Positions 16,290-17,601 of a stretch of DNA of 34,263 bases are shown in pieces (the stretch's first letter is position 1; every line of letters starts with the position of its first letter). The translations under genes and the position numbers were made by a program. The stretch comes from a virus, in IMG/VR virus record IMGVR_UViG_3300042860_001377, positions 1 to 34,263 of that record; one strand, given 5' to 3'. The notes beneath the pieces are model-generated. The model was not told the DNA's origin, did no database searches, and was given only the letters and a program-made list of their open reading frames with translations.

Positions 16290-17417
16290 TCAGTGATGCA
16301 CACTAGGCTGCACCTCGTCAAGTAAAGTCCGAAACGCTAACTCTGCCGTTGCCGGCACTACTCCGTTGCCAAGTAAGCGCAATTCGTCTGTGCGATTGTC
16401 ACAGGAGACGCACAACTCGGCATAGTCCAGCCTATCGGAAGGCCCATGAGTGTCTCCACCCAGCGCGGGTTCAATTTGCCGCTGGCATCCTGTTTCACCT
16501 GTCCGGTCAGCAGCAACTCGCCCTTTCGATTCCCGCCCCTGCTGGTCTTGCCTCCAGCCATTCCCTCGGGCGTTGCCCATGCCTTTATCTGGCTGTGCAG
16601 CGTGTCCGGCTTCCCCCTGTGTGCTCCACTGTCCATCTCCGCTCTCGGAGTTGCCCATGCTTTCGCCTGCATCGTTAGACTCACATGGCAATGCTCGCCC
16701 CTGTCTGCATTCCTCGCCACGAAGTTGCTGTCCGCTTCCGGCTCGTTTGCTCTGGGAGTTAGCCACGACTCTGGGCGGTTCCCATGCGTGCTGTGGTTGC
16801 CCTGGGCGGCTAGGCCAGATTCTAATTGTTGCTTCACTATTGAATCTAAACTCGGGTTTTTTCGTTTTCGTTCGCTTGTGCAGTCTTCTGCTTGTTTGAC
16901 TCTGATCGTGGGCCATAATAAACACCCGCTTTCGCTGATGCGGCGCGCCGCATTCAGCCGCTGAGAATATTCCCCACGTCGTTTCGTAACCAAGTTCTTC
17001 CAGTTCTCCAACGACTTCTCTGAGTCCAAGGCTAATGTGTCCTTCGACGTTCTCGAAGAAGCAGAGCTTTGGTCGAAGAAGTCGAATGCCGCTTGCGATG
17101 TAGGGCCAAAGATGTCTTGGGTCGTCTGTTCCAAGTCGCTTCCCGGCTGCGCTGAATGGCTGGCAGGGGTAACCTCCAGAAAGAACGTCCACCTTATCTC
17201 GAAACTCTTCCCATGGGAAGGTCTTAAGATCCGTCCAAATAGGTGCTGGGTCCATGAGTCCCGCTTCCATTTTTGCGACCAAGTTTGCAATGGCGAAGGC
17301 TTCGATCTCACAAAGAGCGACTGTGCGCATAGTTGGGAGGACTCGTTTAAGTCCAAGCTCAATGCCGCCGTATCCAGCACATAAGCCGAGGTGTTTAATT
17401 GTCTGGGTAGTATCCAC
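16290..17417 (-). CDS. DNA cytosine-5 methyltransferase
   Basis: A 375-residue C5 methyltransferase. Motif I is 'CAGYGGIELG' (residues 13-22), motif IV 'GGYPCQPFS' with catalytic Cys85, motif VI 'FENVEG' near 121-126, motif VIII 'RKRVFIMAH', and motif X 'LLGNGVVPATAELAF' near the end. The region between VIII and X contains repeated 'ANS/GNS/GNA' turns and would hold the target recognition domain. It probably methylates phage DNA to resist host restriction. It starts at a GTG at 17417, because stops block the frame just upstream. The start overlaps an ATG two bases earlier that opens a second long frame. Confidence 0.88.
   Translation of the reverse strand: MDTTQTIKHLGLCAGYGGIELGLKRVLPTMRTVALCEIEAFAIANLVAKMEAGLMDPAPIWTDLKTFPWEEFRDKVDVLSGGYPCQPFSAAGKRLGTDDPRHLWPYIASGIRLLRPKLCFFENVEGHISLGLREVVGELEELGYETTWGIFSAAECGAPHQRKRVFIMAHDQSQTSRRLHKRTKTKKPEFRFNSEATIRIWPSRPGQPQHAWEPPRVVANSQSKRAGSGQQLRGEECRQGRALPCESNDAGESMGNSESGDGQWSTQGEAGHAAQPDKGMGNARGNGWRQDQQGRESKGRVAADRTGETGCQRQIEPALGGDTHGPSDRLDYAELCVSCDNRTDELRLLGNGVVPATAELAFRTLLDEVQPSVHH
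16292..16322. repeat. Direct repeat at methyltransferase 3' end
   Basis: 31 bases matching 17421-17451 at 26 positions. The same strand in both copies encodes the C-terminal LDEVQP of two unrelated adjacent proteins. The two copies flank the methyltransferase gene. Confidence 0.75.
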
Positions 17418-17419
17418 AT
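16358..17419 (-). CDS. Overlapping 353-codon ORF inside the methyltransferase gene
   Basis: The frame shifted relative to the methyltransferase is open from an ATG at 17419 (part of TAATGTG, where the enzyme's own GTG is two bases later) for 353 codons. The product is serine/tryptophan-rich with repeated W-x-T-P motifs (residues 219-222, 255-258, 281-284) and ends with LNPRWVETLMGLPIGW at 316-331. Earlier stretches include 'SPLQTWSQKWKRDSWTQHLF' and 'SSRTSKDT'. I recall these signatures from annotated phage proteins near or overlapping C5 methyltransferases. It has no methyltransferase motifs of its own. Translation is not proven. Confidence 0.5.
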   Translation of the reverse strand: MWILPRQLNTSAYVLDTAALSLDLNESSQLCAQSLFVRSKPSPLQTWSQKWKRDSWTQHLFGRILRPSHGKSFEIRWTFFLEVTPASHSAQPGSDLEQTTQDIFGPTSQAAFDFFDQSSASSRTSKDTLALDSEKSLENWKNLVTKRRGEYSQRLNAARRISESGCLLWPTIRVKQAEDCTSERKRKNPSLDSIVKQQLESGLAAQGNHSTHGNRPESWLTPRANEPEADSNFVARNADRGEHCHVSLTMQAKAWATPRAEMDSGAHRGKPDTLHSQIKAWATPEGMAGGKTSRGGNRKGELLLTGQVKQDASGKLNPRWVETLMGLPIGWTMPSCASPVTIAQTNCAYLATE

Positions 17420-17601
17420 TAGTGATTCAAGTTAGGCTGCACTTCGTCAAGGTCCTCCTGTGTCCACCCCTCGCGCCGCATCTGTTGCTCCAGTGCTGCT
17501 GCCTTGGCCTCGGCCCGTAGCAGTCGATTCTTTGCCTCTTGCAATTGCATCTTCAGTGACTCAATCAGGAATTGATTTTCTAAGCGTTCAATGGGTGTCA
17601 T
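17419..17601 (-). CDS. Small coiled-coil protein
   Basis: A 60-residue protein forming one continuous charged helix (IERLENQFLIESLKMQLQEA onward) with heptad character, so probably an oligomeric coiled coil. It ends LDEVQPNLNH, nearly the same tail as the methyltransferase (LDEVQPSVHH), which reflects the direct repeat. Its stop overlaps the start of the methyltransferase and of the second frame (TAATGTG). Function unknown. Confidence 0.6.
   Translation of the reverse strand: MTPIERLENQFLIESLKMQLQEAKNRLLRAEAKAAALEQQMRREGWTQEDLDEVQPNLNH
17421..17451. repeat. Direct repeat upstream of methyltransferase
   Basis: Second copy of the 31-base repeat at 16292-16322 (26 of 31 identical). It covers the end of the small coiled-coil gene. 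Confidence 0.75.

Follow-up and report, generated by a model that had tools for sequence, protein, structure and literature searches.

A viral DNA stretch of 34,263 nucleotides (hereafter the window) carries a locus that we read, with a probability of roughly 0.86, as encoding a cytosine-5 (C5) DNA methyltransferase made of two chains, its catalytic domain being read from one frame (frame 0) and its DNA-recognition domain from a second frame that overlaps it (frame 2), a proposal derived from sequence comparison and from analogy with known enzymes. Frame 0 would yield the large domain, with motifs I to VIII for AdoMet binding and catalysis followed by motif X, and frame 2, starting two bases earlier, the small domain with the target-recognition region and motif IX. 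Both chains would be translated and would assemble into one enzyme complex, and their joint start codons may help to hold them in balance. The order of the blocks along the DNA (motifs I to VIII, recognition region, IX, X) would then be that of an ordinary single-chain enzyme, the recognition-IX block alone being read one base out of frame. Orphan methyltransferases of phages usually protect the phage DNA from restriction, and the enzyme proposed here, probably an orphan as well, may similarly shield its phage from the restriction systems of the host.

Table 1. Features of the two-frame methyltransferase locus (positions in the window).
Feature	Position	Strand	Description
Frame 0	16290..17417	-	Predicted C5-methyltransferase large chain; GTG start at 17417; 375 aa; motifs I-VIII and X
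Frame 2 (+1 frame of the methyltransferase)	16358..17419	-	Proposed recognition chain; ATG start; 353 aa
Parts of frame 2			Helix, W-x-T-P region, motif IX
Start signature TAATGTG	17415..17421	-	TAA, stop of the upstream ORF; ATG, frame 2; GTG, frame 0
Upstream ORF, 60 aa	17419..17601	-	Stop shares one base with the frame-2 ATG
Motifs I-VIII, frame 0	16905..17393	-	GLCAGYGG ... GGYPCQPFS ... ENV ... GAPHQRKRVF
Frame-2 linker, over motifs IV-VI	17015..17194	-	Weakly constrained; frame-0 synonymous sites near saturation
Frame-2 helix, residues 131-165, ..SLENWKNLVTKRRGEYSQRLNAARRI..	16925..17029	-	pLDDT 90-97 in core
Frame-2 target-recognition-like region, W-x-T-P units	16475..16918	-	Frame-0 reading: VANSQS / MGNSES / MGNARG
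Putative motif IX, frame 2, LNPRWVETLMGLPIGW	16427..16474	-	Best window for the motif-IX matrix from ordinary C5 methyltransferases
Motif X, frame 0, ELRLLGNGVVPATAELAFRTL	16314..16394	-	Moved into frame 2 in L085, L028, L062, L006

Organization of the locus and paired start site

In the list of open reading frames, frame 2 covers nearly the whole length of frame 0 on the same strand (Table 1). An earlier reading of the sequence (the original prediction) had noticed this second open frame with its own ATG, placed in TAATGTG two bases before the GTG, and we confirmed it at the same positions. The three W-x-T-P units and the LNPRWVETLMGLPIGW that had been described in its product are present too (WLTP, WATP and WATP, accompanied by a WPT and the LNPRWVETLMGLPIGW segment).

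Across homologues, the frame-2 ATG lies exactly 2, 5 or 8 nt upstream of the methyltransferase start in 120 of 123 genes (79, 34 and 7, respectively), and the start of the methyltransferase is a GTG in 80 and an ATG in 42 of the 123. When upstream frames open for at least 30 codons are considered, the frame-2 ATG overlaps the stop of such a frame (TAATG/TGATG or ATGA) in 44 of the 123 homologues. The overlap between the 60-aa ORF and the frame-2 ATG in the window represents a possible case of translational coupling, and from the paired starts we infer coupling together with re-initiation at two near-adjacent start codons.

The terminase genes adjoin the methyltransferase gene. None of the ten other ORFs of the window scanned against PHROGs gave a nuclease match. 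The last 200 residues of a 772-aa ORF (window:31541-33859) match many PHROG families of tail, baseplate and virion proteins.

Family assignment of the two frames

Frame 0 was assigned to PF00145 (7.5e-36), over residues 9-199 only, and covered only positions 4-167 of the 329 of the NCBIfam profile TIGR00675; the methyltransferase signal of Pfam and NCBIfam is thus found in frame 0 alone and ends at about motif VIII. Motifs I, IV (PCQ), VI (ENV) and VIII (QRxR) are present in this order, with PCQP, ENV and R162/R164 being invariant, and the frame aligns with M.HhaI across motifs IV-VIII. It matches phrog_363 (4.7e-59) and also phrog_116. A database search of the second product, as suggested in the original prediction, had a divided outcome: frame 2 matches phrog_1008 (1.2e-20), and neither Pfam nor NCBIfam recognized it. 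All three PHROGs are labelled DNA methyltransferase, and 363/116 and 1008 are filed as separate families, whereas here both come from a single gene read in two ways. A search of solved structures with a frame-2 profile returned no match. AlphaFold2 gave a mean pLDDT of 56 for frame 2 alone, with a single confident helix, and no useful model for a frame-2 C-terminus.

Selection on both reading frames

The set of homologues used here comprises about 130 distinct genes from two scans of viral contigs, one seeded with each frame. Nearly all of them, including those found by frame-0 patterns only, keep frame 2 open from end to end. In the window gene, none of 200 synonymous shuffles kept the +1 frame equally open (observed 352 codons, shuffled mean 212). 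The homologues being related, their counts of stops and openness are not independent trials. In 105 of 127 genes the openness of the +1 frame was never matched in 200 synonymous shuffles, frame 2 has no stop over motifs I-VIII in 110/110 (2.55 expected per gene), and frame 0 has none in the middle region in 110/110 (5.72 expected under frame-2 synonymous shuffling). Stops in both frames being absent from these homologues, selection keeps the two frames open along the gene. Frame-2 stops in homologues had been named beforehand as an observation that would speak against a second protein, and the 110 stop-free genes, together with the shuffles, instead uphold the suggestion of a non-random, overprinted protein preserved by selection.

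The explanation that frame 2 is open merely through codon usage or composition and is not translated could draw on the window taken alone, where openness over the N-terminal half is only suggestive (P = 0.075) and no more than 0.39 +1 stops are expected in the middle region. The case against chance is carried by the homologues and not by the window alone, and stop avoidance across these genes, the reversal of substitution phase described below, the conserved start codon and motif IX leave this explanation a negligible probability. At the level of selection, chance openness was ruled out by synonymous shuffling and phase analysis.

The reading frame under selection switches along the gene: motifs I-VIII and the last part are dominated by frame 0, the recognition region by frame 2. 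Over motifs I-VIII, substitution at frame-0 codon positions 1, 2 and 3 amounts to 0.175, 0.104 and 0.3125, the third position being the highest. Over the middle region, the values are 0.245, 0.071 and 0.148, where the highest (0.245) corresponds to position 3 of frame 2 and 0.148 to position 3 of frame 0. Over the last 45 codons, the peak is back at frame-0 position 3. A set of 30 disjoint pairs retained this phase pattern, as did every one of 200 sets of disjoint pairs chosen at random, and it is the same between the window and its closest relative (L082). The least variable site of the middle region is frame-0 position 2, which is position 1 of frame 2. This site is nonsynonymous for either frame, and its low variability is what dual coding would lead one to expect. 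The comparison of codon positions that the original prediction had called for therefore shows a middle region dominated by frame 2, so that the second frame withstood this test as well; this also sustains the link that had been drawn between the second protein and target recognition. In the N-terminal part, change at fourfold sites is reduced over codons 1-75 and over codons 136-150 and close to saturation over codons 91-120. Frame 2 thus seems to have an N-terminal part, followed by a loose linker that covers motifs IV-VI and by a helix preceding the recognition region.

A selective signal that goes from frame 0 to frame 2 and back to frame 0 in the canonical order of the enzyme would also be expected from programmed frameshifting, by which a single chain would be read in frame 0 through motif VIII, in frame 2 for the recognition-IX block and in frame 0 again for motif X. 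Such a chain would need two shifts of opposite sense, but it would need neither an open frame 2 over motifs I-VIII, which is nonetheless found in 110/110 homologues, nor a frame-2 ATG at a fixed place, nor an open frame 0 through the middle; moreover, the known analogues consist of two polypeptides (PMC3404938). We thus consider frameshifting improbable, and favor two separately initiated chains.

A single homologue (L079) has an early frame-2 stop; the break lies in the linker and an ATG follows soon after. In L108 (L108:3001-4158), frame 0 ends past motif VIII after 187 codons and frame 2 is open (382 codons), which possibly reflects a broken methyltransferase or a sequencing error.

Motifs IX and X

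In enzymes of the M.HhaI type, motif IX sits with the recognition domain. We scored the proteins of both frames with a 16-residue motif-IX matrix made of nine segments from ordinary enzymes and one M.HhaI segment. LNPRWVETLMGLPIGW is the best window of the frame-2 protein, and the corresponding frame-2 segment came out on top in 103 of 117 phage homologues and in 18 of 20 distant families (the latter judged by reading the windows listed); with the same matrix, motif IX was the best window in 0 of 117 frame-0 proteins. Alignment of frame-2 C-termini to ordinary IX-X regions with hhalign fell in the expected register and was non-significant (E 0.15-0.26). The assignment of motif IX to frame 2 is accordingly a sequence-based one, drawn from the 16-residue matrix, from its position and from the swapping of motif X. 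In four homologues (L085, L028, L062 and L006), motif X (LGNGVVP) is gone from frame 0 and present in frame 2, which is hard to explain unless frame 2 belongs to the enzyme. After the recognition region and ahead of motif X, these four also carry an additional segment that is CxxC-like in frame 0, and they could represent natural intermediates between layouts like those of M.EcoHK31I and M.AquI. The W-x-T-P region, for its part, occupies the place expected of a target-recognition domain.

The original prediction had placed all methyltransferase motifs in one frame, which does not hold for motif IX. It had also taken frame 2 for an unexplained extra that modifies the enzyme or counters a host defence. 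That frame 2 encodes a separate protein with such a function would fit a real, conserved frame with its own start and an N-terminal part with lowered synonymous change. It would leave aside that frame 2 holds the motif IX missing from frame 0, stands at the place of the recognition domain and, in some homologues, has acquired motif X as well, and we find it very improbable. An independent accessory protein was dropped as the best reading, given motif IX in frame 2 and the motif-X swaps. Since motif IX is absent from frame 0 and carried by frame 2, the latter is best read as the recognition subunit of the enzyme itself. The idea that the second protein binds the enzyme is probably right, and a counter-defence role is possible for the whole enzyme, orphan phage methyltransferases being usually protective, while a separate role of this kind for frame 2 found no support.

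Comparison with known methyltransferases

M.EcoHK31I and M.AquI are C5 methyltransferases made of two polypeptides. In M.EcoHK31I, motifs I-VIII and X as well as the recognition domain are on the large chain and the smaller chain has only motif IX, and the second chain of M.AquI carries part of the recognition region and motifs IX-X (PMC3404938). By described motif layout, the window resembles M.EcoHK31I (YGGCCR), with a predicted large chain that has motifs I-VIII and X without IX, and motif IX on a second polypeptide. Lee, Kam and Shaw reportedly found in 1995 that the small-chain gene of M.EcoHK31I lies inside that of the large chain, in a different frame, and that both chains are needed in vitro; in the window, too, the second gene overlaps the first in another frame. 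Unlike in M.EcoHK31I, the second frame of the window has its start ahead of that of the first and extends over almost all of the gene, the recognition region draws its selective signal mainly from frame 2 rather than from the frame of the large chain, and the gene is a probable orphan of a phage, located beside terminase genes.

With M.AquI (CYCGRG), the proposed enzyme would share two chains and a second chain that carries the recognition half and motif IX. It differs in that the first chain keeps motif X and the overlap is nearly complete instead of short. Motifs IX and X were both found in the second frame only in L085, L028, L062 and L006, in Alicyclobacillus (L212) and in the mycobacteriophage Catdawg (L259). 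Single-chain C5 methyltransferases (M.HhaI, Dcm type) have the same order of motifs along the DNA, but their motif IX is in the same frame and their +1 frame contains several to many stops. The two-chain kind of enzyme is therefore already known, and the full-length overlap, the shared start site and the breadth of this layout appear undescribed; no description of such an overlap was found in the literature searched, which came largely from outside the subscription journals.

Overlapping genes that encode two parts of one enzyme and are selected over hundreds of codons are rare and would be useful test cases for the way in which a single piece of DNA can serve two proteins. As the variable recognition module and the catalytic core are read from different frames, changes of specificity would have to keep both frames open. 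A methyltransferase gene that was cloned or annotated from a single frame may be inactive or carry a wrong name, and proper testing of many predicted orphan phage methyltransferases would need the partner chain.

Distribution of the two-frame layout

The layout with a second protein in the +1 frame was found on plasmids of Sphingomonas, Paenibacillus, Shinella and Roseicitreum and in phage C75C1; in Acinetobacter, Xanthomonas, Erwinia and podovirus genomes and on an Enterobacter plasmid; on Acinetobacter, Nostoc, Lacticaseibacillus and Bacteroides plasmids, in a Paenibacillus phage and in Mycobacterium phage Catdawg; and on a plasmid of the methanogenic archaeon Methanomethylovorans (L263:1198-2001). 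Every relative with the layout has the second protein in the +1 frame, these relatives having been picked by similarity to the query frames, so that they give no frequency of the layout. Motif IX lies in the +1 frame in all 77 scorable cases among the 85 matches listed from plasmids and the bacterial genome scan. Among genomic C5 methyltransferases sampled from 16 genomes and plasmid records, together with three further plasmid genes, eleven have a recognizable motif IX in frame 0 and none of these an LNP-type motif in +1, and eleven others have the LNP-type motif in +1 and none of these motif IX in frame 0. The two states are thus mutually exclusive in this sample.

We consider it fairly likely that, of the C5 methyltransferases that phage, plasmid and bacterial genome annotation treats as single genes, a large share are two-chain enzymes encoded in overlapping frames, with one structural domain per frame, a widespread and ancient dual-coding arrangement that is mostly split, missed or called hypothetical. 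Both frames are annotated in some records, e.g., those of Xanthomonas phage PhiXhv-5 and Paenibacillus phage Arcticfreeze, and one or neither in others. The public annotation of L163, L164, L166 and L167 gives a single frame, named hypothetical protein or DNA methyltransferase, or pieces of that frame, or neither frame. In phage Catdawg (L259:598-1549), gp6 and gp5 are each annotated as DNA methyltransferase and correspond to the two chains, which overlap over a shorter stretch here; gp5 bears motifs IX and X. On a Picosynechococcus plasmid (L261:1210-2296), a longer frame in +1, which contains a motif IX-like FSPEAMAMYMGFP, overlaps a methyltransferase. M.AquI originates from the Picosynechococcus group, and the enzyme of this plasmid is perhaps related to it.
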